Below, one piece after another: positions 561 to 57,989 of a stretch of 64,000 nt of DNA. The stretch is taken from positions 1 to 64,000 of IMG/VR virus record IMGVR_UViG_3300042691_029373. One strand, written 5' to 3'. Made by a program: the position numbers and the translations under genes. Position 1 is the first letter of the stretch; each line of letters begins with the position of its first letter. The notes under the pieces were generated by a model that had not been told where the DNA came from, did not search any database, and was given only the letters and a program-made list of their open reading frames with translations. The stretch comes from a virus.

Positions 561-1631
561 TTATTTAGAAACTTCCCACCATTTAGGACCTTCGTTAGAT
601 AAAAAGTCTACCTTTTTTTCATTTTTACCACCCATTGATACAACCCAAGTAATCATAGCTTCTCCATCTTTACTCAGTAATTTAGTTCCTGGAGTTGCTA
701 ATCTTTCCCCATGGACACTATGAAAAATAATCGGAATTCCGTTTTTAATTGCACCTACATAACCAACGTGTGTATTAAAAGTAAATGGTGTTTTGTCTTG
801 ATAAATACCGGTTTTGTCTAATTGTCTATTTTGGACAGCTCTTTCACAAAATGCTTTTCCTTTATTACCTGAGTTACCATAGTACATACCAACAATATCC
901 CCAACCTTTAAAGATGAAAGATTTACGTTTGATTTGGATGGATAAAAACTAGAAATGGTTGATGAAATTTTACTACCATTTTTACAACTTTTATCTTTAC
1001 CCTCACCTTCTAGCTCAAAACAAGAACAAGAGTCCGAGTTTACAAATTTTGAGTTTCTAATATTGTCCCAATTAATCGAACCGTCGGTGAACATATTATA
1101 TAAAACTGACCCTTTAGTTTTTGCGTTAACAAAAGCTTGCCACGCATTTCCAAGATAGTTACCCGTCATTTTTCTAACATATTCAGAACATCCTTCACCA
1201 CCGCCATTACCAATTGTGGACTCATTTTTATCTGAAATTTTATTACAAAGTGTATTATCAACCGCAACACAACTCTCTGTTCCCGACACTTTATTTTTTT
1301 CCTCAGATTTTTTTTGTAAAGACTTAATACCCATACTCATTACAGTTTTTGTATCTATTTTACCTGTAATTGGTAAGTTATTATCTTTTTGATATTTTTT
1401 TAAAGCGGTTATTGTTTTTCCCCCAAAAATCCCGTCAACTCCGTCTAAATTTTTTCCACTCCTACCCAATAAACTACCATATTTAGGTTTAAGTTTTTTT
1501 TGTACGTCATACACAGTTTGGGAAAAACCTTCATCTAATCTAATTTTATTTTTTGATTTTGAAATGGCTTCTTTGTGTAAATTCAAAATTCTACTTTGTT
1601 CTTCTTCGGATATTAGTAATTTTTTTAACAT
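561..1631 (-). CDS. Tagged virion-type peptidoglycan hydrolase: PG-binding domain plus cysteine peptidase/amidase-like domain
   Basis: 356 residues. Residues 1-22 form a tag of the SEEExxRILNLHKEA type, shared with the proteins starting at 48332 and 52763. An RLDE site at about residue 34, of the (I/L)xE type, follows it. Residues about 36-110 look like a PG_binding_1 domain (VDGIFGGKTITALKKYQ). The C-terminal half has a candidate catalytic Cys (GCSEYVRK, about 148) and His (THVGYVGAI, about 287), the layout of CHAP/NlpC-like wall peptidases; this part is inference. The start is preceded by ATATTTATATAAAA. It probably acts on the host wall from the virion, because there is no signal peptide. 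Confidence 0.6.
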   Translation of the reverse strand: MLKKLLISEEEQSRILNLHKEAISKSKNKIRLDEGFSQTVYDVQKKLKPKYGSLLGRSGKNLDGVDGIFGGKTITALKKYQKDNNLPITGKIDTKTVMSMGIKSLQKKSEEKNKVSGTESCVAVDNTLCNKISDKNESTIGNGGGEGCSEYVRKMTGNYLGNAWQAFVNAKTKGSVLYNMFTDGSINWDNIRNSKFVNSDSCSCFELEGEGKDKSCKNGSKISSTISSFYPSKSNVNLSSLKVGDIVGMYYGNSGNKGKAFCERAVQNRQLDKTGIYQDKTPFTFNTHVGYVGAIKNGIPIIFHSVHGERLATPGTKLLSKDGEAMITWVVSMGGKNEKKVDFLSNEGPKWWEVSK

Positions 1632-1718
1632 TTTGGGGTTTTTATATAAATATTTAACATACCTATAATTGTTAATAAGTTTATGTAAATTTATTTTTTT
1701 TTGGGATTGATTTTAACT

Positions 1719-1726
1719 TATCTTTG
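1719..1726 (+). promoter_or_regulatory. Bacteroidetes-type -7 box (TATCTTTG)
   Basis: TATCTTTG matches the Bacteroidetes -7 consensus TAnnTTTG and lies 20 bases before the ATG of the next gene. A TTTG at 1699-1702 may be the -33 box, with a short spacer of 16. Confidence 0.6.
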
Positions 1727-1745
1727 TTTTTTTAAAATAAATAAA

Positions 1746-2090
1746 ATGAAAAAAACACTAATAATCTTGGGATTTATAAGTTCATTTATAATATTTTCAA
1801 TCTTGAAAAAAGACAAATTGTATTACATACCGTTTGATATTCCTGGTAAACAAATGGCGGCCACAATACCTCCATTCGGTATTTTTATCGAGTCAAAATA
1901 TCGTTCTAATGAAGAAATGTTAAGACATGAGTTGGTACATTGGGCTCAATACAAGAGGATGGGAGTTTACGGATTTTACTCTACGTATTTATCTGAGTAC
2001 AAAAAGTACGGTAGGTTTGATGGGCCAATGGAAGTAGAAGCTCGAAAATTAAGTAAAATTAAAACAAAACACAAAATGTGTTTTGATTAA
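1746..2090 (+). CDS. Membrane-anchored HExxH metallopeptidase-like protein
   Basis: 114 residues from the ATG at 1746; upstream in-frame codons lie over the promoter. Residues 4-21 are a hydrophobic anchor or signal segment. RHELVHWAQYKRMG carries an HExxH zinc-binding motif, and PMEVEARK further on supplies a likely third ligand or helper Glu. The protein from 43247 has the same arrangement (HEYTHY then PFEVEARK), so the two share a fold. The substrate is unknown. It is short for a full peptidase and could be a minimal metalloprotease acting in the envelope. Confidence 0.55.
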   Translation: MKKTLIILGFISSFIIFSILKKDKLYYIPFDIPGKQMAATIPPFGIFIESKYRSNEEMLRHELVHWAQYKRMGVYGFYSTYLSEYKKYGRFDGPMEVEARKLSKIKTKHKMCFD

Positions 2091-2109
2091 CGTATTTTAT
2101 TTTATTCTA

Positions 2110-3135
2110 TTATTTTATACAGGATAAACTTTTAGCTGTATTAACGACCTCCTTCAAATATCCTAAACTGCTAATATATTGAATTGTTGGTTCATCTGAA
2201 ACTAAATTAATTGCTTTTTGGGTTACTGTAGTTGTATCAGTTTTGATATTTGGAATATAGTTTTTTATAACTTGGTTTTTATCTACTTTTAGTACCAAAT
2301 CAGGTTTATCTTTAGGAAATGGTTGATATACACCATTAATACTATCACACGGAGCCATAAATTCAGGATTGTTTGTTTTACAATATTTTTTCTTAAATCT
2401 AGATGAACCTAAATTATATGACATAATTGCGGCATCCATAACACTATTATTTGATGAAGATGGATTATCTATGAGTTGACCTTGGTTTATTATTTTAGAC
2501 GGACTTTTACTATCATAATATGGGGTTAATTCTTCGTATAAATTTATAAGGTGTTTAGTAACTGCTAAAAGTGAACCTGATAATGACATCAATTCCTCCA
2601 AATCTACTCCATATTTTTTTGCGATATCTGGAGTCATTTGAGCAATTCCCATACTCGGAACCCAATTATCTTTATTAAAAACTTTTTTAGCCCCATATTT
2701 CAAAACCTCACTAAAACCCGGTATTGTATCACTAAGCTTATTCATCAAGTATTCTGGTGCTGCTTTAATACCGTACATACCCATAACCTTACCAAAATCA
2801 GATTCTCTACCAATTATTCCTATTGCATATTTTACGTAAAGTGGGTCAAAACCTTCAGAAATTACAGATACCGCAGCTGTTGAAATTTCAGGTGTGGTAC
2901 AAGTATATTTGTTGAGGTTCAAATCGTATGTTTTGACAACGCTTTGACTTTTAATTGGGGTATTTTGGGTGACTGGTTGTTGTTTGGATACTTGTTGCAT
3001 TCGATTCATTCCTTGAGCATATTTTTTTTGTTCTTCAGGCTTCAATGTGTTAGTTTTAAATTTGGTTTGCTCTAAAATTATTTTTTTTACAATTTTAAAC
3101 AAATCAGATTCAGTGAGTTTGATAACTTTTTTCAT
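2110..3135 (-). CDS. Tagged lytic transglycosylase (SLT/lysozyme-like fold)
   Basis: 341 residues. Residues 1-23 are the class I tag (KLTESDLFKIVKKIILEQ) with ILE|Q as candidate processing site. A Pro/Gln/Thr-rich linker follows to about residue 75. The catalytic domain has GRESDFG (Glu at about 112), then SMGIAQMTP at about 167, the ExxF and SxGxxQ motifs of SLT transglycosylases, and a MSYNLGSSRF segment resembling the AYNxG motif. It probably cuts glycan strands of the host wall during DNA entry. The promoter region on the minus strand has ATATTTAT. There is no signal peptide, which argues for a virion component rather than a secreted lysin. Confidence 0.75.
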   Translation of the reverse strand: MKKVIKLTESDLFKIVKKIILEQTKFKTNTLKPEEQKKYAQGMNRMQQVSKQQPVTQNTPIKSQSVVKTYDLNLNKYTCTTPEISTAAVSVISEGFDPLYVKYAIGIIGRESDFGKVMGMYGIKAAPEYLMNKLSDTIPGFSEVLKYGAKKVFNKDNWVPSMGIAQMTPDIAKKYGVDLEELMSLSGSLLAVTKHLINLYEELTPYYDSKSPSKIINQGQLIDNPSSSNNSVMDAAIMSYNLGSSRFKKKYCKTNNPEFMAPCDSINGVYQPFPKDKPDLVLKVDKNQVIKNYIPNIKTDTTTVTQKAINLVSDEPTIQYISSLGYLKEVVNTAKSLSCIK

Positions 3136-4991: not shown

Positions 4992-4993
4992 TT

Positions 4994-7618: not shown

Positions 7619-9034
7619 ATGGGTAAAATAAAACTCACGGAAAGTGAATTTAAGAAGTTTTTGAGGATTACGCTTGTCGAGCAAAGTGAGGAAGAATACT
7701 ACAAAATTTCACCAGAAGAATTTTCAGAGTTGATGAAGTTCGGTGGATATCACGGAAAAAGTGTAACAAAATTAAAAATGTTTGGAGGTAAACCAATTTG
7801 GATTACTGGTGATTTGATTTTAAATGATACACCTACCGATTCATTAGGTAATGTTAAATATATTGAGGGTAGATTAGATATTAGACATACAAACATAAGT
7901 GATTTGTCAGGTGTTGAAGTTAAAAATTATACTTGGGACTCTGGAACACCGAGGGAGGCAAGACGTAAAGCTGAAGAAAGAAGAAAAAAATTACAAAGCG
8001 CCGAGGAGAGAAGATTCAATAAGGAGTGGGATATCGATAATCCTGATATTACTGAACTAGGTGAAAAGGCAAATGCTCTATATGATATGTTGGTTAAAGA
8101 TAGAGAAATCGAAGAACCTGATGAAGAACAACTTGATGAATTAAAGAATCTTGAAAATGAAATCAGGAGAGTTACTAATGAGATGGAACAGAGTGAGGAC
8201 GAAGAAAGGGCTAAACAGTTATACAACACTTTATCTGAATTACAAGACAGAGTCGAAGAATTAAGAGGTGAAATGGTAACAGTATATAACCTAATACCAC
8301 TATACTACGATTATCATGGACTCCAACAATTTGAAGTTATTAGTAGTGACGCGGAAGGTAGAGAATATGCGGTTGGTGATGAAGATGAAATGGATGATGC
8401 GGCATTTGAATACGCTAAAAATTATATTGATGAGGTTGGGGTTGAAGGTTTTAGAATGCATTTTTTAGAAAATTATTTGGACACTGACTCCATTGAAGAT
8501 TATTTCAGAGATGTTTTTTACGATGATGTAAGACAGAATCCTGAAGTATATTTTGATGAAAGTGAAATGCCGACCACCGAAGAACAGGATAGACGTAGAG
8601 AAGAACTGGAAGAATATATTGAAAATGTTAAAGGTGTCATTGAAAAGTTAAAAAGAAAACAAGATGACCTTAACAATACGATTGAAGACTTTGATGAATA
8701 TAAAAAACAATGGGATGAAATTGAAGAAAAGATAAGGATAATTCAAGGACATATTGATGACTCACAAGAAGAAATTGATAATATGGTTCCTGAAGGTGAA
8801 GTTACAACTCAAATGGTGGAAGACAAAGTTGAATATTGGGTCTCTGAAAAAATGGCAGACCCAAGGGCGTCATTGGACGAATTTGGTGCGGATATAAGTG
8901 AATATATTGATATGGATGCCTTGGCTCGAGGTTTAGTAGAAAGTGATGGATATGCTATTATGGGTTCATATGACGGTGTTGTTGATACGGAAAAAGTTAA
9001 TGGTACGCATTACTATATCATGAGAATTAATTAA
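7619..9034 (+). CDS. Tagged acidic coiled-coil protein with leucine-rich-like repeats
   Basis: 471 residues. Residues 1-22 are a class I tag (GKIKLTESEFKKFLRITLVEQ, site LVE|Q). Residues about 40-100 contain stacked segments like GDLILNDTPTDSL and GRLDIRHTNISDL, the pattern of short leucine-rich repeats seen in phage proteins. Two long charged coiled coils follow (about 110-220 and 330-400). The protein is strongly acidic. It is preceded by AATATTTATCAGTACTATG. Probably a virion protein by its tag; no enzyme motif. Confidence 0.7.
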   Translation: MGKIKLTESEFKKFLRITLVEQSEEEYYKISPEEFSELMKFGGYHGKSVTKLKMFGGKPIWITGDLILNDTPTDSLGNVKYIEGRLDIRHTNISDLSGVEVKNYTWDSGTPREARRKAEERRKKLQSAEERRFNKEWDIDNPDITELGEKANALYDMLVKDREIEEPDEEQLDELKNLENEIRRVTNEMEQSEDEERAKQLYNTLSELQDRVEELRGEMVTVYNLIPLYYDYHGLQQFEVISSDAEGREYAVGDEDEMDDAAFEYAKNYIDEVGVEGFRMHFLENYLDTDSIEDYFRDVFYDDVRQNPEVYFDESEMPTTEEQDRRREELEEYIENVKGVIEKLKRKQDDLNNTIEDFDEYKKQWDEIEEKIRIIQGHIDDSQEEIDNMVPEGEVTTQMVEDKVEYWVSEKMADPRASLDEFGADISEYIDMDALARGLVESDGYAIMGSYDGVVDTEKVNGTHYYIMRIN

Positions 9035-15898: not shown

Positions 15899-16204
15899 AT
15901 GAAAAATATCCTGATTACCCAAGAACAATTAAATAAGTTAGTTAATATCGTGAAGGAAAATCACGAAGGTGAAGATTCTATAACTAAAAAACAATTATTC
16001 ACAATTGCCACGTTGGCTTATAAAATGTGGGAATCGATGGATGATAATGAACAGTTGGAAGACTGGGAAGAAAGTAAGATTGCTCAATGTGAGCAGAGTA
16101 TCATTGCTGTGGTGAAGAATTATATGTATGATGAATTTGTTGATGACAATCAAACAACAGGGATGGATAAACTTAATTATGATGAGTTGGTGATAGGTAA
16201 ATGA
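15899..16204 (+). CDS. Tagged small protein
   Basis: 101 residues. Begins KNILITQEQLNKLVNIVKE, a class II tag in which ITQE replaces the usual ITES. The body is acidic and helical, with a WESMDDNEQLEDWEE stretch. Preceded by ATATTTATAATAAAAGAACACA. Likely a virion-internal protein by its tag. Confidence 0.6.
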   Translation: MKNILITQEQLNKLVNIVKENHEGEDSITKKQLFTIATLAYKMWESMDDNEQLEDWEESKIAQCEQSIIAVVKNYMYDEFVDDNQTTGMDKLNYDELVIGK

Positions 16205-19070: not shown

Positions 19071-19610
19071 ATGAAGTTTATTATTAACGAACGCCAATAT
19101 AAAATCATAAATGAACAGTTAGGATATTCTTCAGGAGGTTATCCTGAAGTTATGAAAACTAGTCAAAAAGAATTTGAAAAGCAATATCCTACTTTAACAA
19201 ATTTTTTAAGAGATTTATCCTTATGGTTTGTTCCATATATCGGTCCGTATTTGGTGGCGGCCAAAGGTACTTATGAAGGTATTGAATCCATAAAAAAAGG
19301 AGATAATTTTATGGGTATGGTACAATTAATAACCAGCCCTTTGGCATTAGGAAAATATTTGAGGTTTGCCAAATTATACGGAATGGAACAAAATGAATTT
19401 ATGAAAATGTTAGAAATGATATATAAAAGTGGACTACCTGTTTTAAAAAATGAAGGGGTAGAGCAATTTTTTAGGTGGGGACAACAAAATTTCGGAACGA
19501 CCAAATTTAATGCTTTTGTCGAAAACATAAAAGATACAACACAATTACAGAGTTTTTTAAACAGTTTAAATGATGAAGAAAAGAAAAAAATTGAAATTAA
19601 AAAAACATAA
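19071..19610 (+). CDS. Tagged protein with hydrophobic segment
   Basis: 179 residues from the ATG at 19071, after TATATTTATCAAT; an in-frame ATG 60 bases earlier lies over the divergent gene. The tag KFIINERQYKIINEQ has two INE sites. Residues about 45-90 (LSLWFVPYIGPYLVAAKGTY and onward) form a hydrophobic Gly-rich stretch like that of the tagged protein at 11347. It may interact with membranes after ejection; inference only. Confidence 0.65.
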   Translation: MKFIINERQYKIINEQLGYSSGGYPEVMKTSQKEFEKQYPTLTNFLRDLSLWFVPYIGPYLVAAKGTYEGIESIKKGDNFMGMVQLITSPLALGKYLRFAKLYGMEQNEFMKMLEMIYKSGLPVLKNEGVEQFFRWGQQNFGTTKFNAFVENIKDTTQLQSFLNSLNDEEKKKIEIKKT

Positions 19611-39646: not shown

Positions 39647-40026
39647 ACGATACGTCCGCTTCTTACATCAAAGACCTTATAGTCGGGGAGCATAGATTCA
39701 AAAGCATCAGAGATAAAGTATTTACCATTGGTCATCCAAACAGGGTGAGGTAACATCTCCTCAAAAAACCCATCATACTTATGGCTGTAGTATAAATCAC
39801 CCGTTTTACCATCACTAAAAATAGAAAACATCATCATAGGATTACCGGCTGAATCGTATAGGACAATTCTATTACTATCCTCACTATATGATTCAATCTC
39901 ATCAACAATATAAGGAACGATGATATGTTTAAACTTATTGTATAGGTCCTCATACTCAAAATCCATCCAATGACGTTCAAGTTCGGATATAAGATTAAGT
40001 TGTGATTCGGTGATAAGGTATTTCAT
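39643..40026 (-). CDS. Tagged small protein
   Basis: 127 residues. Class II tag KYLITESQLNLISELERHW. The body differs from its downstream neighbours and has beta segments (RIVLYDSAGNPMMMFSIFSD). Overlaps the polyprotein stop by 4 bases, convergent. Preceded on its strand by AATATTTATCTTATATG. Confidence 0.65.
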   Translation of the reverse strand: MKYLITESQLNLISELERHWMDFEYEDLYNKFKHIIVPYIVDEIESYSEDSNRIVLYDSAGNPMMMFSIFSDGKTGDLYYSHKYDGFFEEMLPHPVWMTNGKYFISDAFESMLPDYKVFDVRSGRIV

Positions 40027-40038
40027 ATAAGATAAATA

Positions 40039-40374
40039 TTACATTGATAGTTCGGCGTCACCTATCAGACCACCGTATACTTTGACATCCGAAGGTTCAA
40101 TCTTACCGGAGTTAGAGTTTTCCTCAACAAAATGGGTGAGAATTAATTCGGCCTCATCCTTATCAATAGAAAAGAATTCACATACACTGTTTATAAAATC
40201 TTCGGATATTATTAAAGTACCTGACCTTCTTCTATACCTCATAACGGCGTGTGTATCGTCTAAAGAATAAACAAAACTTATATAACTTGTCCAATAAACC
40301 GCCTCAAGATTTAGTGAATTAATATAATTAAAAATAATACTGTTTAATTTAGATTCGGTGATTAGGAATTTCAT
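40039..40374 (-). CDS. Tagged small protein, LITESKL family copy
   Basis: 111 residues. Tag KFLITESKLNSIIFNYINSL, then a beta strand pair, DFINSVCEFFSIDKDEAELI and a variable C terminus. This is one of five closely related neighbours (40039, 40390, 41161, 41475, 41858) that share the layout of tag, YLDNQDF-like turn, hairpin, FFS helix, W/VEN helix. Preceded by TATATTTATCTTATATG. Confidence 0.7.
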   Translation of the reverse strand: MKFLITESKLNSIIFNYINSLNLEAVYWTSYISFVYSLDDTHAVMRYRRRSGTLIISEDFINSVCEFFSIDKDEAELILTHFVEENSNSGKIEPSDVKVYGGLIGDAELSM

Positions 40375-40389: not shown

Positions 40390-40701
40390 TTAATACCCAA
40401 CAATCGGACTGGCAACTTCCACATTAATAGATTTTATTCCGAGTTTATTTTCAATCCATTTATTAATTACATTAATGGAGTCCCCATAATCTAAAGAAAA
40501 GAATTTGCTAACTTCGTCGACCAAGTCGTAGTGTATTGTACACCAGCGGTCTTTCGGATGATATCTAACTTGAGCATATTCATCATCTTCAGAGTTGACA
40601 TAGTATAATCTATTCCCCATTTTAATTACAACGAAGTCCTGATTGTCAAGATACTTAAAAACTATACTATCAAATTTAGATTCGGTGATAAGATATTTCA
40701 T
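40390..40701 (-). CDS. Tagged small protein, LITESKL family copy
   Basis: 103 residues. Tag KYLITESKFDSIVFKYLDN, then QDFVVIKMGNRLYYVNSEDD, VDEVSKFFSLDYGDSINVI and KWIENKLGIKSINVEVASP. This is close to the family consensus and especially to the copy at 41858. Preceded by TATATTTATCTTATATG. Confidence 0.7.
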   Translation of the reverse strand: MKYLITESKFDSIVFKYLDNQDFVVIKMGNRLYYVNSEDDEYAQVRYHPKDRWCTIHYDLVDEVSKFFSLDYGDSINVINKWIENKLGIKSINVEVASPIVGY

Positions 40702-40733: not shown

Positions 40734-41159
40734 ATGAGTATTAAAGAATCCATAAGAAGAATATTAAGGGAAGAAACTTTACTTAAAACCAATATAAAAG
40801 ACATGATTTCCAAACATGGATTTTATATAACGTCCAAAATGTTAGGTGGAGTTGATATTATGAATAGTATTCTTAATATAAAAGGTTCACAGGAAGAAAT
40901 GATTTTCATTGTTAAAGCCATAATGGAACATGATGTTGAAGTTTTGGGTAATGTATGTAACTATCAAATAGTTCCGACCATGTACTCATTTAAACTATAT
41001 GTAGAAATACCAAAATATTATCCCAACCATTCCGATGATTATTACCCAAACAAACAAAAAACATTTGAGGCGAGAGATTATATATCTGACTTAATAAAAA
41101 AGTTTGGAAATGAAAAGGTGAGAGGATATAATATATACGTTCAGGTAGGAAATTGTTAA
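40734..41159 (+). CDS. Tagged protein related to the last polyprotein module
   Basis: 141 residues. Class III tag SIKESIRRILREET (LRE|E). IKDMISKHGFYITSKMLGG and the next helix match the start of the last module of the protein at 37790. It is inserted in opposite orientation in the middle of the LITESKL gene cluster. Preceded by AATATTTATTATCATATG. Confidence 0.65.
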   Translation: MSIKESIRRILREETLLKTNIKDMISKHGFYITSKMLGGVDIMNSILNIKGSQEEMIFIVKAIMEHDVEVLGNVCNYQIVPTMYSFKLYVEIPKYYPNHSDDYYPNKQKTFEARDYISDLIKKFGNEKVRGYNIYVQVGNC

Positions 41160-41160: not shown

Positions 41161-41478
41161 TTAGTCAGCTCCGTAATCAGAGAAGATATAGTCAAAATCA
41201 AAATCAATTTTGGTTTTAATCCATTCACCAATAATATTCAAAGCGGTCTCCAAGTCCAAACTAAAGAATGATGCGACCTCAACAACTAAATCTGAACTTA
41301 CAAAACATTCTTTATTAACACGATTTGTGTTGATTGATATATATCCACCACTTTCCCAACTCTCCTTAGAGTCCCAAAAGACATAACCAGAGTGATACTT
41401 CATTTTATAAAAGTCCTGGTTATTTAAGTAGTCAAAGACAAGATTAGTAAGTTTAGATTCGGTGATAAGGAATTTCAT
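41161..41478 (-). CDS. Tagged small protein, LITESKL family copy
   Basis: 105 residues. Tag KFLITESKLTNLVFDYLNN, then QDFYKMKYHSGYVFWDSKES, VEVASFFSLDLETALNII and EWIKTKIDFDF. It overlaps the next copy upstream by 4 bases, so these two are translated together. Confidence 0.7.
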   Translation of the reverse strand: MKFLITESKLTNLVFDYLNNQDFYKMKYHSGYVFWDSKESWESGGYISINTNRVNKECFVSSDLVVEVASFFSLDLETALNIIGEWIKTKIDFDFDYIFSDYGAD

Positions 41479-41840
41479 TCGGTTTTAACAATTAATCTGT
41501 GAGAAGACCCACTGTTGATAGTGTTTTCTATTTTACCAACCTTAATACCCAAAGTATCACTAACCCATACTTTTATTATCTCTAAACAATCCAAATCATC
41601 AATAGAGAAGAAATCAGATAATTCCTTAATTAAATCATAATTCACATATACCCAATTCCTAACAAAACCAAAAGAGTTTATGTGATAAACACTAATCTGA
41701 GCGTAAAGGTCGGACTCATTGTTTAAGAAGTATATGTAGTTGTCAAATTTCTTCTTGTTGTCATATACTATAAAATCCTGATTATCCAAATACATAGACA
41801 CTGTATTATACAATTTAGATTCTGTGATTAAGTATTTCAT
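41475..41840 (-). CDS. Tagged small protein, LITESKL family copy
   Basis: 121 residues. Tag KYLITESKLYNTVSMYLDN, QDFIVYDNKKKFDNYIYFLN, IKELSDFFSIDDLDCLEII and VWVSDTLGIKVG. Longest of the five copies; the extra residues lie in the hairpin. Preceded by ATATTTATTATCATATG. Confidence 0.7.
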   Translation of the reverse strand: MKYLITESKLYNTVSMYLDNQDFIVYDNKKKFDNYIYFLNNESDLYAQISVYHINSFGFVRNWVYVNYDLIKELSDFFSIDDLDCLEIIKVWVSDTLGIKVGKIENTINSGSSHRLIVKTE

Positions 41841-41857: not shown

Positions 41858-42181
41858 TTAGTTAGGTATTACCAACGCATAACCTGAACTCGGAGCAACA
41901 CCGATGCTTTCGACCTCCATTTTTATGATATTCTCAACCCATTTAACAATAACTTTATCAAAGTCAGAATCTTGTAAAGAAAAGAACATAGAAATTTCAT
42001 TATATAAATCGTAAGATACGTAACACCGACCATCTTTGTCAAATCTTATTTGAGCATATTCATCTGATTCAGAATTGACAAAGTATATGCTTTCTCTATT
42101 TTTAAACCGAATAAAGTCCTGATTGTCCAAATACTGAAGGATAATACTATCCAATTTAGATTCGGTGATTAGGTATTTCAT
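41858..42181 (-). CDS. Tagged small protein, LITESKL family copy
   Basis: 107 residues. Tag KYLITESKLDSIILQYLDN, QDFIRFKNRESIYFVNSESD, YNEISMFFSLQDSDFDKVI and KWVENIIKMEVES. It is the first gene of the cluster on its strand. Preceded by ATATTTATTATCATATG. Confidence 0.7.
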   Translation of the reverse strand: MKYLITESKLDSIILQYLDNQDFIRFKNRESIYFVNSESDEYAQIRFDKDGRCYVSYDLYNEISMFFSLQDSDFDKVIVKWVENIIKMEVESIGVAPSSGYALVIPN

Positions 42182-45248: not shown

Positions 45249-45623
45249 ATGAAAAAAGTTATAAGATTAACCGAATCGGATTTAGTTCGTTTAGTAAAAC
45301 AAGTTATAAATGAGCAATCTATTCCTGAACCCGAAAAGATTTCCGCTGACCATGCTAAATTTGAGGAATATGTAAAGACAAAATGGGGTTGGAAGGAAGA
45401 CCCTTATGCTTCAATTGACTTTGAAGGAGGTGATAACAAGTTTACAATATGTGATGGTCCGTGTGGTTCACTTATTCCTGGTACAGATGTTAATAGTGTT
45501 ACATGGGATGGAAAAACTAAAACGGTATATGGAACCGTATCATTTGGAGTTGACCCCAAACCAATTTCATGGAGTTATAAATTTAACCAAATGAAAACAT
45601 GGTTTGATTCTTCTTTCGGATAA
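45249..45623 (+). CDS. Tagged hypothetical protein
   Basis: 124 residues from the ATG at 45249. Class I tag KKVIRLTESDLVRLVKQVI with INE|Q. The body has FTICDGPCGSLIPGTD with two Cys and beta strands (KTVYGTVSFGVDPKPISWSY). No family recognised. Confidence 0.7.
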   Translation: MKKVIRLTESDLVRLVKQVINEQSIPEPEKISADHAKFEEYVKTKWGWKEDPYASIDFEGGDNKFTICDGPCGSLIPGTDVNSVTWDGKTKTVYGTVSFGVDPKPISWSYKFNQMKTWFDSSFG

Positions 45624-45726: not shown

Positions 45727-46035
45727 ATGAGATATATTATAACGGAAGAACAAAATAATATTATTCGTGTCCTACGAAGAATTGACCAAGACCATGATTT
45801 GATTCAGGATATTGTTGTTGAGGGAATGGAAATGTATTTGTGTGATTATGACCCCTTTAATTATTTTTATGAATTTTTATGTCGGAACTCAGCATTTACT
45901 TATCTTTTAAATTATTTTGATAACCCACGTCAAGAAGGGTTCATGAAAATGGAAGATTATATGACTGATTATATTAAGGAAAACTTTAAGGAAATGATTG
46001 TTACCTATTGGGAAGATAATAAGGAATATTGTTAA
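45727..46035 (+). CDS. Tagged small protein
   Basis: 102 residues. Class II tag RYIITEEQNNIIRVLRRID with ITE. The body is aromatic and acidic (YLCDYDPFNYFYEFLC). The ATG is 6 bases after ATATATTTAT. No family recognised. Confidence 0.65.
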   Translation: MRYIITEEQNNIIRVLRRIDQDHDLIQDIVVEGMEMYLCDYDPFNYFYEFLCRNSAFTYLLNYFDNPRQEGFMKMEDYMTDYIKENFKEMIVTYWEDNKEYC

Positions 46036-46498: not shown

Positions 46499-47038
46499 AT
46501 GAAATACATTCTTACGGAGTCACAGTATGCTGGGCTGATGAAACTAATTAAAAAACAAGAAGAGGATTTGAGTTTTTTGAAAAGTAGTGTGGTCTCTACA
46601 ATCGAACATGACGTAACAGATTTTTTAAACTCCAAGTTTCAAGGTAGATTTGGACACTATGGTTATACGCAATATCCCGTATTTTTTATTTATCCTGATA
46701 AATTAACCTCTGAACTTACAAAATATAATAGGAGAGAACCGGCTTTGGTTATTGCTTATAATATAAAAAAATCTACAGGCAAAGTTGAAATTAATATTTT
46801 TTGGAATACTAAAGTGAGTTTTAATTATAAAACAGAAGATGGTAAATGGAAAAGAAATAAGTATCCCCAAAATACCATTAAGTGGGATTATATGAATAAC
46901 CCTGACGGAGAAGAGGAATTCTTATCTAAATTGGAAAAGACCATTAACGGAAGAATAAGTGAAAGGGCTCAAAACAAAATTATTGATGATTTTGAAAAAC
47001 TTTATAGAGAAGAATATCAAACTAGTATATTAAATTAA
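46499..47038 (+). CDS. Tagged hypothetical protein
   Basis: 179 residues. Class II tag KYILTESQYAGLMKLIKKQ with LTE. Body alpha/beta with KSTGKVEINIFWNTKVSFNY and a basic helix near the end. No family recognised. Confidence 0.65.
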   Translation: MKYILTESQYAGLMKLIKKQEEDLSFLKSSVVSTIEHDVTDFLNSKFQGRFGHYGYTQYPVFFIYPDKLTSELTKYNRREPALVIAYNIKKSTGKVEINIFWNTKVSFNYKTEDGKWKRNKYPQNTIKWDYMNNPDGEEEFLSKLEKTINGRISERAQNKIIDDFEKLYREEYQTSILN

Positions 47039-47108: not shown

Positions 47109-47480
47109 ATGAAAAAGATAATTAGACTTACCGAATCCGAACTAATCAAAGTTGTAAAACGTATTATTAACGAACAGCATTTTGATGAATTTATGACATC
47201 ATCTGAAACATCTTCAGTCTCTAATGTCGTACAAAATCTTGAAAGAGAAATGGGTGATTACAAAAATAAAATGGATGGATTTTTATCCGATTTGAAATCA
47301 TCAGGTGATATTGATTGGAATAGATTCTTGAAGCAAGTTAGAAATCAAACAAGTGAAATATTTCATAAGTATGATGATGAATCTTTATCTAGGGAGGACT
47401 CATTAAACCTCTTCAATACATTCTCCCAACTCCAATCAAACCTTCTTAATCATTATAAAGGACAATACAGAAATTCTTAA
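47109..47480 (+). CDS. Tagged helical protein
   Basis: 123 residues. Class I tag KKIIRLTESELIKVVKRII with INE|Q. The body is helical with coiled-coil character (NLEREMGDYKNKMDGFLSDL). The next tagged gene follows after 13 bases. Confidence 0.7.
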   Translation: MKKIIRLTESELIKVVKRIINEQHFDEFMTSSETSSVSNVVQNLEREMGDYKNKMDGFLSDLKSSGDIDWNRFLKQVRNQTSEIFHKYDDESLSREDSLNLFNTFSQLQSNLLNHYKGQYRNS

Positions 47481-47493: not shown

Positions 47494-47772
47494 ATGAAAA
47501 AGATAATTAGACTTACAGAATCAGATTTAACAAGAATTGTTAAACGTGCTATTAACGAATCGGACCGAGCTTATGGTCATGAAGAAATAGGTAAACTATA
47601 TTCTAAATTGGGAGACGATGAGGATGTTGAATTGAGTGACGAGTCTGGCGAATTGTCAGGTGGGATTGTTAAGAAGATTGACTATGTAAAGAATATGCTG
47701 AGAAAAGCCATAAAGAATGAGGATTGGGAAATGGTTAATAGAGCCATGAGTTATCTTAACATGAAATTATAA
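47494..47772 (+). CDS. Tagged small helical protein
   Basis: 92 residues. Class I tag KKIIRLTESDLTRIVKRAI with INE|S, nearly identical to the preceding gene's tag while the bodies differ. The body is acidic then helical (KNEDWEMVNRAMSYLNMK). Confidence 0.7.
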   Translation: MKKIIRLTESDLTRIVKRAINESDRAYGHEEIGKLYSKLGDDEDVELSDESGELSGGIVKKIDYVKNMLRKAIKNEDWEMVNRAMSYLNMKL

Positions 47773-47812: not shown

Positions 47813-48067
47813 ATGGGAAAAAAAATTCGATTGACCGAATCTGAGTTAACCAAATTAATAAAGAAAATGATTTCGGAAGACTTGGAAATGATGGACGTTT
47901 CCTCAGATTCTGATTATTATAAAGCAAGAAAACGAGAAGTATCCATACCCAAAGACGATTTGGCGTTACTAGGTCATATGGCCACAAGGTATTGTGAAAG
48001 AAAAGAAAATCTACCAGATTGTCAAAGAGTTCAGGATTTGTATTCCCGTTATCAATTATTTATGTAA
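47813..48067 (+). CDS. Tagged small protein
   Basis: 84 residues. Class I tag GKKIRLTESELTKLIKKMI with ISE|D. The body has CERKENLPDCQRV with a Cys pair. Preceded by TATATTTATAATAAAAC. Confidence 0.7.
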   Translation: MGKKIRLTESELTKLIKKMISEDLEMMDVSSDSDYYKARKREVSIPKDDLALLGHMATRYCERKENLPDCQRVQDLYSRYQLFM

Positions 48068-48078: not shown

Positions 48079-48327
48079 ATGAAAAAACCTATTAGATTAA
48101 CCGAATCCGACCTTAATAGAATTGTTAAAAAAACAATTATGGAAATGGGAGGTATGACCAATTCAATTGAGATGTATGACTTCAATAAAAGAAAAATGAT
48201 AAATGGATTACATCAATTGAAATCCTCCATAGATAGTGGAGATAATGAAACTGCATCACATATTGTACAAGTTTTACTTTTAACATTAAACGAACTTGAT
48301 TCTTATGTTGATGAAATGAAAAGATAA
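48079..48327 (+). CDS. Tagged small helical protein
   Basis: 82 residues from the ATG at 48079. Class I tag KKPIRLTESDLNRIVKKTI with IME|M. Helical body (GLHQLKSSIDSGDNETASHI) resembling the last helices of the protein at 47494. Confidence 0.7.
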   Translation: MKKPIRLTESDLNRIVKKTIMEMGGMTNSIEMYDFNKRKMINGLHQLKSSIDSGDNETASHIVQVLLLTLNELDSYVDEMKR

Positions 48328-48331: not shown

Positions 48332-49225
48332 ATGAAAAATTTATATTTTTTAGACAACTCAGAAAGAGAAAGAATTCTCAATCTACATGAATCGGCAACC
48401 AAGAATCAATATTTGATTAACGAACAATCGGCAGATAAAGATATTGCCGGTAGAATATATAAAGCATCGTATGGACCTGGTACAGGTAGTGATTTTTTAA
48501 CCGCAATACAAGCAATATCTAGTTTACAACAATTGAAAAATGTTGATGCTCTTTTGAAGAGTGGTTATGGTCAACTTGGTCTACAAGGTCAAATTAACGA
48601 TGAATTTAACCCACAAGAAGCAACCGATAGAGCAAGCTTAAAGGCGTTTCAGAGTCACTTGGCTAAACTTGGTGCTACGATGACATTCGACCAAAATAGA
48701 AACGAAAGTGTTGTTATTAATTACCAATCAACCGTTCAAGCTCAACCTGAGACACAAAAAACAGAAGAGCAACAAGTGGCTGATTGGTCACAAAAATTCC
48801 CATGTGTTGTAAACTATCCCGGAGCCCAAAAAATTGCCAATCCCCGTACCGATACTAATGTTTCAGGCACTGTTGCTTATAAAATAGGTGAATTTACTTA
48901 TTTTATTGATGGTAACCAATATGGTAAAGGAAGTTATAGTACCTACACATGTGATGATGCATTTTTCAAAAATTCGTCAAGAGTACAAGCCAATCCAGAA
49001 CAAAAGGGAGGTAAGACAAGTGGTGCTCCACAACCTTACAAACATGCTCAACATGTAACAAATGTTCAGAACAAATTAAAGGAGATTGACCCGGCCTTCG
49101 CTGGTGGAGTTACAAAAACAGGTCAAATGGACCAAGCTACTATAAACAAGCTCATGGAAATACTTATGTCAAAAAAGATGCCTGAGACTAAAGTTGAGAC
49201 ACCGGCTCCTGAAGCTGAAGGTTAA
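48332..49225 (+). CDS. Tagged protein with PG-binding-like C terminus
   Basis: 297 residues. Tag NLYFLDNSERERILNLHESA and then YLINEQ (INE|Q at about 31), the same two-part tag as in the wall hydrolase at 561. Next DIAGRIYKASYGPGTGSDFL, a Gly-rich helical segment, then a Gln/Glu linker. The last part (VQNKLKEIDPAFAGGVTKTG) looks like a peptidoglycan-binding repeat. Probably a virion protein contacting the wall. Confidence 0.6.
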   Translation: MKNLYFLDNSERERILNLHESATKNQYLINEQSADKDIAGRIYKASYGPGTGSDFLTAIQAISSLQQLKNVDALLKSGYGQLGLQGQINDEFNPQEATDRASLKAFQSHLAKLGATMTFDQNRNESVVINYQSTVQAQPETQKTEEQQVADWSQKFPCVVNYPGAQKIANPRTDTNVSGTVAYKIGEFTYFIDGNQYGKGSYSTYTCDDAFFKNSSRVQANPEQKGGKTSGAPQPYKHAQHVTNVQNKLKEIDPAFAGGVTKTGQMDQATINKLMEILMSKKMPETKVETPAPEAEG

Positions 49226-49239: not shown

Positions 49240-50451
49240 ATGAAATTTATAATTACCGAAGAGGAAAAAAAATATATTAAGGGACTCTATGGGTTGATAA
49301 CTGAACAGACCAATGTTTCTAATGTTGTCATACCCGACAATATTTTGGAATATTCATATGACGAATGGGTAAAATGGTATAATGAAAATATAAAACCATT
49401 CAACTCTACAACTCTAAGGAAAATAGTAAAAAATCGTATACCCGATAACCCTGATTTATTATTATCAGATGGTATAAGAAGCATCACTAAAACTCCGGAT
49501 GATAGAAGTAAATTCAATGGATTATTGAAAAAGTTTAACACTCCTCTATCTTCAAGTGCGACTATTTCAGAAAGAGATTCATTAATTTCAGCCTTCGAGC
49601 TAGCTCAAAATCTTGTTAATGAAGTTTATGAAAAATGGAATGATAGTTTGAAAAAAAATATGGTATTAACCATAACAGAAACAACAGAAACCGTTCCTGG
49701 CGAATCTATCGGTGGTACGGTAGAATTCCCAATTGAATGGAATCCTGATACCAATATTCAGTTATATGTTAATAATGAGTGGGAGTTGTCTCCAGAAGCC
49801 ATTGAATCTTATAATCAAAATATTCTAAGTAAAGTAAATATTGCGAAAGAACAATTCCCAAATGCGATAATATCATTGAAGTCATTGGATATTCAAACTT
49901 CTGCATCAAGATATAGAAATACCGGGCGGGCATCCGATTTAACTTTTCAAGAGCTATCAGGATATAGAAACAATTCTGCCAAAGATTATATAATTAATTC
50001 ATTAAAAGAAAATGGTGTCACCGAGACGGATACCGTAACCCCAACTCAACAATATTTAGGAAGTAATGGTGATGGTACCACAGGACCTAATCCTCCTGAG
50101 CCAAATGCTTATGTTAATGGAGGTAATGTTAAAATGAATACAACATCTACCGAACCAAGAAACCAATTTGGAGAACCTCACGCAACACCTGAAGAATATA
50201 ACCAATACAAATATTTAAAAGTGAAAATTGTTTTAGCCGCCACGATAGAGACAGAGGAAACCACACAGTCACCTGTTGAAGTTTTCAATTACTCATTGGA
50301 TATTGACGGTAAAATTATACCACCACCAACTCCGGTTAAAAGACCAAAACCAAAAGGTAAGTCATCCTCATTTAATTTCAGGGATAAATTAGCAGGATTT
50401 TTGAGTATAAATCCTAAATTATGTGCCGCTTATCAATCAGGAGGAAACTAA
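49240..50451 (+). CDS. Tagged protein with OmpA-like segment
   Basis: 403 residues. Class II tag KFIITEEEKKYIKGLYGLI with two ITE sites, the second in LITEQTN. Residues about 195-260 (AIISLKSLDIQTSASRYRNT, then LSGYRNNSAKDYIINSL) resemble the SxxRA-type helix of OmpA-like domains that bind peptidoglycan. Pro-rich basic tail (PTPVKRPKPKGK). The 3' end overlaps the convergent secreted gene. Confidence 0.55.
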   Translation: MKFIITEEEKKYIKGLYGLITEQTNVSNVVIPDNILEYSYDEWVKWYNENIKPFNSTTLRKIVKNRIPDNPDLLLSDGIRSITKTPDDRSKFNGLLKKFNTPLSSSATISERDSLISAFELAQNLVNEVYEKWNDSLKKNMVLTITETTETVPGESIGGTVEFPIEWNPDTNIQLYVNNEWELSPEAIESYNQNILSKVNIAKEQFPNAIISLKSLDIQTSASRYRNTGRASDLTFQELSGYRNNSAKDYIINSLKENGVTETDTVTPTQQYLGSNGDGTTGPNPPEPNAYVNGGNVKMNTTSTEPRNQFGEPHATPEEYNQYKYLKVKIVLAATIETEETTQSPVEVFNYSLDIDGKIIPPPTPVKRPKPKGKSSSFNFRDKLAGFLSINPKLCAAYQSGGN

Positions 50452-52404: not shown

Positions 52405-52734
52405 ATGAAGATTGTATTAACAGAATCTCAAATGGAAAAGTTGATTGATGAGCAATTGACTAAACCTAAAGAGACCGAGGATTTTTCAGAGTATATCAGA
52501 AAATTTAACACGATTAAACTTAATAATAAGACATTTACTCCTGACGATTTTTTATCGAAGTTAAATAATTCACCAATCCAACTTAATTTATTCCATATTC
52601 AAACAGATGGGTATAATATCGGAACGGGAGCTTTATCTGCTAAAGGTAAAATTGGTAATCTCAATTTGATATTGAGTGTGAAACCGGTAGGAGATTTCAA
52701 AACAGGTTTGGTTACAATAACAAAAACGATATAA
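52405..52734 (+). CDS. Tagged hypothetical protein
   Basis: 109 residues. Class II tag KIVLTESQMEKLIDEQLTK with LTE and IDE sites. Beta-rich body (GNLNLILSVKPVGDFKTGLV). Preceded by TATATTTATATAC. No family recognised. Confidence 0.65.
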   Translation: MKIVLTESQMEKLIDEQLTKPKETEDFSEYIRKFNTIKLNNKTFTPDDFLSKLNNSPIQLNLFHIQTDGYNIGTGALSAKGKIGNLNLILSVKPVGDFKTGLVTITKTI

Positions 52735-52762: not shown

Positions 52763-53176
52763 ATGAAACATTTATTGAATGACTTATCCGAAGAGGAAAA
52801 AAATAGAATTCGTGAGCAACACACTGGCGGTAAGAAACTTGTAATCGAAAATTTCGATAAACTTGTTAATACCAAACTTGGTGATGTTAAACCATTGTTG
52901 CGGGAACAAACTGAGGAAGCAAATATTACAAAATCTATTCAGTGTTTTTTAAATAAAAGAATGAATGCGGGTTTAGTAGTTGATGGTTTAGCCGGTGATA
53001 ATACAAGTAAAGCCGTTGAAAAATACCAAAGTAACATTGGAGTTTTTCCTACTGATGGGATATTGGGCCCCGATACAAAAGATAAAATGCCACAATCTGA
53101 CGTTAAAATATTAGAGGAATGTATAAATGAACATTCGGATATTATTGATAAAGTATTAAGGTGGTTTGGATTTTAA
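52763..53176 (+). CDS. Tagged peptidoglycan-binding-like protein
   Basis: 137 residues. Tag KHLLNDLSEEEKNRIREQHT and then LLREQ at about 53, the SEEE-type two-part tag. The body LVVDGLAGDNTSKAVEKYQS then DGILGPDTKDKM follows the PG_binding_1 pattern twice. It has no catalytic domain. Preceded by TATATTTATTATAAAAC. Confidence 0.65.
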   Translation: MKHLLNDLSEEEKNRIREQHTGGKKLVIENFDKLVNTKLGDVKPLLREQTEEANITKSIQCFLNKRMNAGLVVDGLAGDNTSKAVEKYQSNIGVFPTDGILGPDTKDKMPQSDVKILEECINEHSDIIDKVLRWFGF

Positions 53177-54186: not shown

Positions 54187-54606
54187 GTGATTAACTTAAA
54201 TGAAGAAGTAAGAAAGTTTGGATACCTTTCATTGTATAAAAGAGGTGTGGTTATTTCCGAACAAACAACAGGCACAACTAGTACTAGCGGTGTAACTTCA
54301 GGTTTAACTACAGTAGAAACTACCTTACTCGGTTTTCTAAATGACGTTGTTCAAAAAAGTTTAACCCAAGACCCATCAAATGTTTCTTTCAGTGGATTAA
54401 CCGATGATGTCGAGAAAAGAAAACAAATGACTGATTTGAGTAATCAATTAATACAAAAAAGAGATACTGGTTCGGTAGATGTAAATCAAAGTAATTTTCA
54501 ATTATATCTCAATACGATGAACAGTATGTTTCCTAATACGGAAGACAAACTCCCATTTTATCAATTGGGGTTAGGTGTTAAAAAGATGGAACAGAAAACC
54601 ATTTAG
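54187..54606 (+). CDS. Tagged Thr/Ser-rich protein (GTG start)
   Basis: 139 residues from a GTG after AATATTTATTATAAAAT. The start INLNEEVRKFGYLSLYKRGV is followed by VISEQTTGTTSTSG: LNE and ISE sites, then a Thr/Ser-rich linker. Helical end. It overlaps the convergent gene by 29 bases. No family recognised. Confidence 0.55.
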   Translation: MINLNEEVRKFGYLSLYKRGVVISEQTTGTTSTSGVTSGLTTVETTLLGFLNDVVQKSLTQDPSNVSFSGLTDDVEKRKQMTDLSNQLIQKRDTGSVDVNQSNFQLYLNTMNSMFPNTEDKLPFYQLGLGVKKMEQKTI

Positions 54607-56112: not shown

Positions 56113-56876
56113 TCCAACTCTCCCAAGTTATCCACATTTATTCTACCGTTCAATCTTTTTCCAAACTTTGGTTCATCTATCGCTTCGTAAAAATACGTAT
56201 CGTCTTTCTCTAATGTTTGATTCATAGGCTCTACAATAGGTGTTTGGACTCTCATTAAACTTATAGTTTTATTGTTTGGGTATATTGAGTCAGGTGCCAT
56301 TTCATCCCATTCATCTAACTCCATAAATTCATTCATTAACTCTGTATCATATGAGGCATAAAACCACTGACTAATCTCTCTTTTATCATAATCGTCGTAA
56401 GTTCCACTACCACCACATTCATTACAATTTACTTGTCCATCGCCTGCACAGTAATCACAATCTAAATCACCATCGCCATCACAAAGCCCGCAAGTATCAT
56501 CTTCCTCATCTCGTCCACTACCACTACAATCACTACATTCTTCGCGGCCAGTACCATCACAGTAATCACAATTTTCATATCCATCACCATCACATTGAGG
56601 ACATTGGGTCTCTGAATAATCCAAATCTATTTCAATTAATGAGTAGGCAAATAAATTATTAACTATTTCATCATACTTTTTATCTAAAACTTCGGGAGTA
56701 TCTACGAGCGGTAAAAGAAAAGAAGAAATTATAATATCTTTAGCCGTCATTCCCTCTGCTAATTTATTATAAGGGAAAGTAGAATGAAAGTAGGTATAGA
56801 TGTCTGTGGGTTGTATGTTGCTGAAATTAGGTTGATGTATTTTTTTTACAACCGAAATTAATTTATTTTTTTCCAT
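56109..56876 (-). CDS. DnaJ-type cysteine-rich (CxxCxGxG) protein without J domain
   Basis: 255 residues from the ATG after CTATTTATTAATATG; upstream codons are outside. Residues about 90-155 hold six CxxCxGxG units (CPQCDGDG, CDYCDGTG, CSDCSGSG, CGLCDGDG, CDYCAGDG, CNECGGSG), two more than the four in DnaJ. There is no HPD-containing J domain. Each pair should bind zinc. The flanks are acidic and not recognised. It may be a holdase or a protein-binding zinc scaffold. Confidence 0.8.
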   Translation of the reverse strand: MEKNKLISVVKKIHQPNFSNIQPTDIYTYFHSTFPYNKLAEGMTAKDIIISSFLLPLVDTPEVLDKKYDEIVNNLFAYSLIEIDLDYSETQCPQCDGDGYENCDYCDGTGREECSDCSGSGRDEEDDTCGLCDGDGDLDCDYCAGDGQVNCNECGGSGTYDDYDKREISQWFYASYDTELMNEFMELDEWDEMAPDSIYPNNKTISLMRVQTPIVEPMNQTLEKDDTYFYEAIDEPKFGKRLNGRINVDNLGELD

Positions 56877-56938
56877 ATTAATAAATAGTCTATGGGCACG
56901 CTTGTTGATATTTATACAATAATATACAAACAAAAAAA

Positions 56939-57271
56939 ATGAAAAAGATAATTACTTTGGTTTTTTTGATGATGTCCATTATGTCTTTTGGACAAAAATT
57001 TAATGCCGAGTATAATTTGGTTATTGATTACAATGGTAAGGAAAGACTTGAAAAAAATCATTCAGGAGTTTGGACCGTATCCGACTCAACCTTGTATCAG
57101 TTTTATGATAACGACACTTTAGAATATAAAATTTCAGAAATAAAAGGTAGAAATGTTTTTCATGTAAATGATTTTGGAGAAACAGTTAAATTTTTATTTA
57201 ACGCAAATGGAGATGTTGTAAGAACTAATATGACAAGACCAAATCAATATCTTATTTACAGAAAAAGATAA
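56939..57271 (+). CDS. Secreted small protein
   Basis: 110 residues. Signal peptide (KKIITLVFLMMSIMSFGQ) of the Bacteroidetes style. The mature part is beta-rich (KFNAEYNLVIDYNGKERLEK). Probably periplasmic. No family recognised. Confidence 0.7.
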   Translation: MKKIITLVFLMMSIMSFGQKFNAEYNLVIDYNGKERLEKNHSGVWTVSDSTLYQFYDNDTLEYKISEIKGRNVFHVNDFGETVKFLFNANGDVVRTNMTRPNQYLIYRKR

Positions 57272-57287
57272 TTTTGTATTTATTAGT

Positions 57288-57989
57288 ATGGAAAATCTTG
57301 ATTACTTGAAACTTCAAAAGAAAATCGTCAATTCTGAAAATTTAGATGAGTTAAAGGACGCGGTAAAAGAAGTTAATCAATTTGTCAAAGATAAAAAAAT
57401 AAAATCAGGTTCTGACGAGTTTAAAAAACTACAGGAAAGAATCAACATAGTATTAATCAAATTGAGAAAGAAATTAAAAACAGAACAAAAAACTATTGTT
57501 GTTACAGAGCAACAATTAAGTAGAATAGTTAAATTATTGTCGGAAGTTGATTCAACGTCACAGGACATTATTGATAGAATTCTTGACCAAATTTCAAAAC
57601 ACGGGGAAGAATCATTGTCTCCATCACAAAAGAAAAAGTTACAAGATTTTAGTTCGGGTAAATCATTAGAATATGATAAACCAAAATTCAGAGATAGACC
57701 AGGTGTAACATTTGAATCACAAGAAGAACCCACTGTTTCATTTACATTACTTGAAACAATTGAAACTGAAGATGGTCATGAATACTTGGGTGAAGTTGTG
57801 TTTATGGAAAATGAATACACCGGATTTGTAACTACCGATGAGAATGAAGAACTCACATCAATTGAGTTTGAAAACTTAAATACACAAAAAGATTTATTAG
57901 AAGACGCGGGAGACAATGTCCCCCACATCGTAAGTTTTTTCGAAGGTGTGGTAATGGGATTAGCCGATGAGGACAATCCTTACGATTGA
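57288..57989 (+). CDS. Protein with an internal tag-like segment
   Basis: 233 residues after GTATTTATTAGT. The first 62 residues are charged helices. At about 64-84 comes QKTIVVTEQQLSRIVKLLSE, which has all features of a class II tag (VTE, helix, LSE), but inside the protein. The rest is acidic, with beta segments. The first part may be a domain added before the tag, or a large propeptide. It overlaps the next gene by 10 bases. Confidence 0.6.
   Translation: MENLDYLKLQKKIVNSENLDELKDAVKEVNQFVKDKKIKSGSDEFKKLQERINIVLIKLRKKLKTEQKTIVVTEQQLSRIVKLLSEVDSTSQDIIDRILDQISKHGEESLSPSQKKKLQDFSSGKSLEYDKPKFRDRPGVTFESQEEPTVSFTLLETIETEDGHEYLGEVVFMENEYTGFVTTDENEELTSIEFENLNTQKDLLEDAGDNVPHIVSFFEGVVMGLADEDNPYD

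Follow-up and report, generated by a model that had tools for sequence, protein, structure and literature searches.

In phage T4, as the relevant passages of PMC9026906 describe, internal proteins are made with N-terminal propeptides of 10–19 residues (capsid targeting sequences, CTS) that are enough to load foreign proteins, and the protease gp21 cleaves after L/I-x-E. In phage P1, the passages of PMC9024508 on DarB describe an N-terminal signal, between 9 and 30 residues, that sends a reporter into the head. A 64,000-nucleotide stretch of virus DNA (positions 1 to 64,000 of IMG/VR record IMGVR_UViG_3300042691_029373, a record of 66 kb; this whole stretch is called the window below) encodes about thirty proteins that start with one of four types of short N-terminal tag (I to IV) and continue with bodies that are mostly unrelated. 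These tags are predicted, with a probability of roughly 0.7, to be interchangeable capsid-targeting propeptides of the T4 type, carried by a far larger set of cargo proteins.

The entire window is contained in a 322,372-base record (IMGVR_UViG_3300031951_000001, hereafter G001). Positions 1-55998 of G001 correspond to window 8003-64000 at 99.97% and positions 314261-322372 to window 1-8112 at 99.83%; the two ends of G001 thus share a 110-base overlap, which closes the record into a circle of its own. Thirty carriers were counted in the window (9 with tag I, 14 with tag II, 3 with tag III and 4 with tag IV); a weak tag IV at 54187 comes in addition. Among the thirty, 26 match the regular expressions (regex) that were run over the parent genome G001, and the other four (7619, 15899, 36192 and 52405) were recognised by eye. 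The four tag types lie where the original prediction had placed them and its figure of about thirty carriers holds; the genes at 47109, 47494, 47813 and 48079, which it had singled out, have first 22 residues that are closely alike and then diverge. The carriers are as follows (a slash, where given, precedes the residue that follows the tag):

561..1631, minus strand, tag IV carrier, MLKKLLISEEEQSRILNLHKEA...IRLDE/G, body with PG_binding_1
2110..3135, minus strand, tag I carrier of 341 aa, MKKVIKLTESDLFKIVKKIILE/Q
7619..9034, plus strand, tag I carrier of 471 aa, MGKIKLTESEFKKFLRITLVE/Q (by eye, outside the regex count)
15899..16204, plus strand, tag II carrier, MKNILITQEQL (by eye, outside the regex count)
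19071..19610, plus strand, tag II carrier, MKFIINERQYKIINE/Q
19613..20164, plus strand, tag II carrier, MKFIITEEQ
34655..35056, plus strand, tag II carrier, MKFLITEQQ
35380..36195, plus strand, tag III carrier, MNLKETIKKILRE/E
36192..36590, minus strand, tag II-like carrier, MRYFITQGQL, aligns with the 39643-42181 family (by eye, outside the regex count)
36685..36990, minus strand, tag I carrier, MKKVVRLTESDLIKLVKRIIKE/S
37790..39646, plus strand, tag III carrier of 618 aa, MNLKESIKRILRE/E
39643..40026, minus strand, tag II carrier, MKYLITESQL, aligns with the paralogues that follow
40039..40374, minus strand, tag II carrier, paralogue, MKFLITESKL
40390..40701, minus strand, tag II carrier, paralogue, MKYLITESKF
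40734..41159, plus strand, tag III carrier, MSIKESIRRILRE/E
41161..41478, minus strand, tag II carrier, paralogue, MKFLITESKL
41475..41840, minus strand, tag II carrier, paralogue, MKYLITESKL
41858..42181, minus strand, tag II carrier, paralogue, MKYLITESKL, modelled residues 1-6 precede the first helix
44502..44879, plus strand, tag I carrier, MKKTVRLTESDLVNLIKRIIKE/E
45249..45623, plus strand, tag I carrier, MKKVIRLTESDLVRLVKQVINE/Q
45727..46035, plus strand, tag II carrier, MRYIITEEQ
46499..47038, plus strand, tag II carrier, MKYILTESQY
47109..47480, plus strand, tag I carrier, MKKIIRLTESELIKVVKRIINE/Q
47494..47772, plus strand, tag I carrier, MKKIIRLTESDLTRIVKRAINE/S
47813..48067, plus strand, tag I carrier, MGKKIRLTESELTKLIKKMISE/D
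48079..48327, plus strand, tag I carrier, MKKPIRLTESDLNRIVKKTIME/M
48332..49225, plus strand, tag IV carrier, MKNLYFLDNSERERILNLHESATKNQYLINE/Q
49240..50451, plus strand, tag IV carrier that fits tag II too, MKFIITEEEKKYIKGLYGLITE/Q
52405..52734, plus strand, tag II carrier, MKIVLTESQMEKLIDE/Q (by eye, outside the regex count)
52763..53176, plus strand, tag IV carrier with a PG_binding_1 body, ...SEEEKNRIREQH...LVIE/N, later LLRE/Q
54187..54606, plus strand, weak tag IV-like N-terminus, MINLNEEVRKFGYLSLYKRGVVISE/Q (by eye)

The resemblance of these N-termini was assessed without any preset motif by a pair test, in which the ungapped BLOSUM62 score over residues 2-31 was set against that of an internal control (residues 36-65), for proteins of at least 80 aa and only for pairs with bodies non-homologous at a blastp E of 0.1. 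Shared N-termini on unrelated bodies clearly exceed chance in the window (96 proteins, 4536 pairs), with 63 N-terminal pairs versus 1 internal pair at a score of at least 38, and 47 versus 0 at a score of at least 42. Over the whole of G001, 127 N-terminal pairs, involving 78 proteins, were found versus 12 internal ones. One similarity group of 42 proteins, some chance members included, unites types I, II and IV, and type III forms a group of 4; the proposed kinship of the four tags is therefore borne out for three of them, type III being separate. A third group (16 of the 78 proteins) is Sec signal peptide-like, and a few small groups look like chance. The tags lack a Sec-type hydrophobic core and the Sec-like group, assigned by eye, stands apart from them; its members (window 23222, 26064, 50437, 56939, 59333 and others) include many that end in SFSQ-type sites, as judged by eye.

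The tags extend well beyond this genome. A search with a DNA pattern that encodes residues 1-12 of tag I, residue 4 being left free, gave at least 120 stretches in virus contigs of up to 412 kb, at least 110 contigs being concerned, G001 included; by a rough estimate, far less than one match would be expected by chance. The pair test gave 223 versus 4 pairs in G012 (304 kb; 46 regex carriers among 405 ORFs, i.e. open reading frames), 68 versus 10 in G026 (282 kb; 31 among 441) and 59 versus 3 in G013 (400 of 412 kb), which has only 7 regex carriers among 600 ORFs and whose largest group is of another kind. Of the four tagged genomes G001, G012, G026 and G013, all but G013 devote 7-11% of their ORFs to carriers.

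Since the tag I search had fixed the first 12 residues only, its matches could be inspected downstream. The proteins of G001 itself (L101), duplicates and a single fragment of less than 30 aa were omitted; 126 distinct proteins remained among the matches listed, the sample to which the tag I figures below refer unless another is named. An [ILVM]xE motif with its E at residues 16-30 is present in 125 of these 126, whereas 1000 shuffles gave a mean of 58.9 and a maximum of 78. The E lies at residue 22 in 105 proteins and at residue 26 in 18 that have an insertion form (123/126 in total). When the 105 proteins are aligned at E22, information amounts to 4.19 bits at residue 22 and falls to 1.21 at residue 23, 0.67 at residue 24 and at most 0.41 at residues 26-40. 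For tag I in three genomes, [IL]xE was found in 35 of 35 proteins, and for tag IV in three genomes [ILV]xE[QNSEG] follows downstream in 17 of 18, the position of the E ranging from 21 to 34 (shuffles gave 3.0 such proteins on average and 9 at most); the (I/L)xE end of tag III is given by its own regex. These data point to the ends of tags I, III and IV being a T4-type prohead-protease motif, which would match the junction predicted in the capsid protein of the same phage (see below).

If the tags were merely a stretch of DNA spread by recombination, or by a regulatory element copying the 5' ends of genes, carriers should often be adjacent, as they indeed are (e.g. 47109-48327). However, tag codons vary freely at synonymous positions while the residues stay, so that the constraint acts on the protein and not on the DNA; such copying can be set aside on this ground and is scarcely credible.

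Body homology was judged by blastp alone, beyond whose reach very remote kinship lies. On this basis, the 35 carriers that the regex search gave among the 378 ORFs of G001 have bodies falling into 31 clusters (carriers of less than 70 aa were left out of the comparison, each being counted as a single cluster), and tag I bodies fall into 98 clusters for 124 proteins. Whole carriers range from 52 to 618 aa. The claim that the bodies are unrelated thus stands for most carriers but fails for six tag II genes (39643-42181): five of them (40039-42181) form the sole multi-member cluster of G001 at a blastp E of 1e-4, to which the remaining one (39643) can be aligned. As these genes are one family, their common N-terminus is partly due to shared ancestry. 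In the predicted structure of one member (41858..42181; mean pLDDT, a model confidence score, 86.8), residues 1-6 precede a helix (7-19) that is part of the fold. A fold search with this family gave no solved relative (best E 0.2) and, at E of 0.001 or less, 10 uncharacterised proteins of uncultured phages. Window 22793-23191 also aligns with the family (20% identity) and begins with a worn tag, MEYKIEENR.

This family is what could be expected if the tags were the first helix of one divergent fold and all carriers were remote homologues, an outcome that the original prediction had itself envisaged. The 31 clusters among 35 carriers, the 98 among 124 tag I bodies, the spread of carrier lengths and the presence of peptidoglycan (PG)-binding and GH19 domains in some carriers do not agree with it, nor does the occurrence of different tags on homologous bodies, and a common fold is very improbable. 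The latter occurrence concerns 18 body-homologous pairs with different tag classes, 6 of which involve protein L123 and 3 of which are based on 36-40 aa. In G012, for instance, the protein at 48611 has tag I (...RVINE/NQEEVDRILDKIS, opening ...VINE/NQEEVD) and that at 72090 has tag II (MKYLITESQYEILIE/NQKYVDSLLDKIS, opening MKYLITESQYEILIE/NQKYVD); their bodies are 42% identical over 135 aa (E=3e-29) and both join the tag at xxE/NQ. Such pairs show that the tags are modular and suggest that their classes are interchangeable between bodies. The majority of cargo bodies have no Pfam domain above the cut-off. The exceptions are all on tag IV carriers, namely PG_binding_1 (561-1631 and 52763-53176) and Glyco_hydro_19 (G001 66050-66868), and some of the cargo may therefore act on the cell wall. 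With most bodies lacking a Pfam name and wall domains in the exceptions, that the cargo consists of injected effectors is only something we infer.

G001 has a T4-type head module including a terminase, a portal protein (phrog_213) and the two following genes:

G001 117086-117811, S77 prohead protease (PF03420, E=1.5e-25; phrog_207)
G001 120692-122545, gp23-type major capsid protein (phrog_138)

The junction predicted in the capsid protein, LINE60/A, reads the same in all 64 distinct sequences compared, that of G001 among them, and is followed by a variable stretch; this invariance is only mild evidence, since the sequences are close relatives (at least 76% identity) and their N-terminal 60 residues hardly vary. 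The best matches of the capsid protein to named phages include Flavobacterium phage immuto, Rhodothermus phage RM378 and Microcystis phage Mel-JY01. A scan of 84,980 prokaryote genomes with the tag I DNA pattern gave 4 matching stretches; they belong to two Bacteroidales metagenome-assembled genomes (MAGs), a Prevotella MAG and an alphaproteobacterial MAG. Bacteroidota are therefore the likely hosts of this giant phage. The tag I matches listed supplied 26 further contigs of 120 kb or more; 22 of these 26 encode PF03420, and 3 of the 4 that do not also lack a capsid match. Among the four records first found with a window protein, G001 is alone in having PF03420; as the 200-kb G002 lacks a capsid match as well, it is probably a fragment without head genes. 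A scan for untagged contigs by means of a ribonucleotide reductase motif listed only 3 contigs of at least 120 kb. Used as a marker of protease substrates, the density of [LI]xE sites gave a mixed outcome: gp22, gp21, gp68 and gp23 rank 1, 4, 9 and 10 of 226 in T4, and in G001 the protein at 115604 ranks 6 and the capsid protein 26 of 326. Elsewhere in G001, window 26615-28412 is gene-poor and has a tRNA-Glu(ttc) at 26631-26703, and two very large ORFs lie outside the window, at 189388-200505 (3705 aa) and 282440-293788 (3782 aa).

Two other phages with an S77 protease have tags of their own. In LR756508 (400 of 484 kb), 136 versus 5 pairs were found, with a group of 32 proteins of the type MRLSERKLRRIVKEEISRVLRE/D, and in immuto, whose tags are of the form MENFDLKKFLVENKLT..., 16 versus 1. 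One tag regex matches 36 of the 378 ORFs of G001, but none of the 1511 ORFs that immuto, RM378, Mel-JY01, T4 and LR756508 (400 of 484 kb) have together, and a 23-residue tag I consensus had no tblastn match in named phages. In LR756508, 13 of the 32 grouped proteins are encoded between 152 and 163 kb, a region that encloses the protease match (156-158 kb). This location, like the head-protease motif that ends the tags here as it does at the capsid junction, does not favour the notion that the tags direct proteins to some other phage-made place or partner in the infected cell, such as a compartment, degradation or a replication complex, and that notion appears quite improbable.

Shared N-termini can be compared with virion proteomes in other phages. 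In Pectobacterium phage CBB, the pair test at a score of 42 gave 29 versus 5 pairs, and 11 proteins (CBB_144, 247, 536, 537 and 548-554) share a tag MLPF...Y[GA]N that was not seen, by eye, among the G001 carriers listed. According to the published Table 4, 9 of these 11 were detected by mass spectrometry (MS), versus 55 of 554 ORFs overall (P=2.4e-8); a motif-less member of the group of 12, 206670, was dropped beforehand and, if counted as a miss, gives 9/12 (P=8.7e-8). As an E precedes the Y in only 6 of the 11, CBB supports a link between shared tags and virion proteins and not one between tags and cutting. Some of the 11 carriers have Kelch or LamG domains, and the CBB tag might fix surface parts such as tail whiskers. 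By analogy, the tags of G001 could be docking peptides that are never cut and that fix proteins to the virion, for instance to the capsid surface or the tail, as the lack of a second site in tag II would also allow. This is unlikely, because the E of tag I is as conserved as any of its residues and conservation stops within a few residues after it, and because the shift of this E from 22 to 26 with the insertion and its varying distance in tag IV would be needless in a docking helix.

In T4, the best-scoring N-terminal pair is ipII/ipIII, which are annotated as internal virion proteins. A hypothetical T4 protein, gp61.1 (NC_000866 18966-19130), starts with MKTFKEFIKE, very like the CTS of ipII and ipIII, and is a candidate further internal protein. 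In cyanophage S-CREM2 (OR473000), one of the N-terminal pairs consists of an S-adenosylmethionine (SAM) hydrolase and a cytidylyltransferase, both MS-detected. A CTS-like regex, [YF]xxF[ILVMF]xE within the first 30 residues, matches 6 of 219 ORFs, of which 5 are in the published MS list (P=0.0026), and a narrower class that omits F gives 4 of 5 (P=0.010); these P values are descriptive only, since the regexes were written after the N-termini had been seen and not blind. The loosest form of the regex, at 7 of 8, was left out of account. To the MS list map 50 of the 219 ORFs, 2 of the 52 MS proteins not being mapped to gene calls. The MS-detected proteins with T4-CTS-like N-termini include a Cas9-like nuclease, the SAM hydrolase, a kinase and the cytidylyltransferase (L385-L394). 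Their N-termini argue that these enzymes are true virion cargo; the passages of the S-CREM2 paper on purification state that regulatory proteins were possibly not separated from the virions.

Several observations weigh against propeptides of the T4 type. Among the sequences themselves, a T4-like CTS regex matches only 1 of 378 ORFs in G001 and none of the carriers; L107 and L123 have no tag I motif at the usual place and one further protein departs from it; the residue that would follow the cut (P1') is mostly Q, N or S in the tags and A in the capsid protein. In tag II, a second site is not enriched (16/43 versus a shuffle mean of 17.6), so that cutting, if any, would occur only at the internal ITE7, tag II otherwise remaining uncut. 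An acidic protein in the scaffold position is not enriched in [LI]xE sites (rank 116 of 326). As to phylogenetic spread, S77 phages RM378 (1 versus 4 pairs) and Mel-JY01 (10 versus 10) have no excess of shared N-termini. Tagged contig G020 yields no protease with PF03420 or the G013 protease as queries, although a weak capsid match of 59 residues lies some 8 kb from the contig end; G020 is possibly a real exception to the pairing of tags with S77. The co-occurrence of tags and S77 is in itself weak evidence, as S77 is common in jumbo phages (it is usual in two of their three groups, according to the passages of PMC7824862 on this protease) and as the count covers tagged contigs only. As to virion data, the pair test alone gives no excess in T4 (5 versus 5) and hardly any in S-CREM2 (5 versus 3), the exact T4 form YxxFIxE matches 0 S-CREM2 ORFs, and a shared N-terminus may, as in CBB, be an uncut docking peptide.

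The original prediction had offered a shared destination and a shared processing step as alternatives. Taken together, the motif at the tag ends, the tag swaps and the virion proteins of other phages support it and point to both. The following course can be proposed. The tagged protein would be made during head assembly and its tag would bind the prohead core. The S77 protease of the phage would then cut after the E that closes the (I/L)-x-E motif at the tag end, and the mature protein would stay in the head with the DNA and be ejected into the next host. All tag classes would serve this one destination and be exchangeable between bodies. A wider proposal, which stands at little better than even odds, is that large S77 phages possess lineage-specific capsid address codes, whose several N-terminal tags, self-removing and interchangeable, bring as many as one in ten of a genome's proteins into the head, a set of some 30-50 injected proteins, and that these codes can be read in uncultured phages from the sequence alone. 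According to the passages of PMC9391042 on this subject, proteins that enter along with the DNA, the T4 internal proteins for instance, are at work before expression of the phage genes begins; acting earliest, they are leading candidates for a part in counter-defence and takeover. If the proposal is true, lists of 'hypothetical proteins' from uncultured giant phages would become testable lists of injected proteins, and the tags would offer exchangeable addresses for putting proteins into capsids.

Among the closest described systems is that of T4, with which the tags have in common their shortness, their N-terminal place on cargo of unrelated kinds, an end in (L/I)-x-E, and a phage with an S77 protease and a gp23-type capsid protein; by eye, the start of tag II even ends as the T4 CTS does (LITE/S versus FIAE/A). 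They differ from it in that tags I and IV are longer, in that there are several tag classes and in their number. T4 has only a handful of CTS-bearing proteins, whereas three tagged genomes have 31-46 regex carriers and a fourth has 7. The DarB signal is likewise an N-terminal capsid targeting signal, but, in the passages of PMC9024508 on these proteins, Dar proteins have no consensus and P1 has its own prohead protease, Pro. phiKZ and SPN3US are giant phages in which many head proteins, inner-body and ejection proteins among them, are cut after E by a T4-like protease; the motif of phiKZ is S/A-x-E, and the corresponding passages of PMC9026906 do not mention a shared tag. The MLPF tag of CBB resembles the tags in being one short N-terminal tag on proteins, mostly virion proteins, of an S77 jumbo phage, but it lacks a conserved (I/L)-x-E and may be an uncut docking tag. 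In S-CREM2, T4-CTS-like N-termini ending in F-x-x-E are borne by unrelated virion enzymes; their sequence is nearer to the T4 CTS and only five regex carriers are in the MS list. In the portions of the open-licence literature that deal with such signals, those of T4 and P1 are described and no description of these tags was found. As far as sequence can tell, the tags thus probably work like the CTS system of T4 without being members of it, and what is new is their scale, the existence of several interchangeable classes and their spread over uncultured giant phages.

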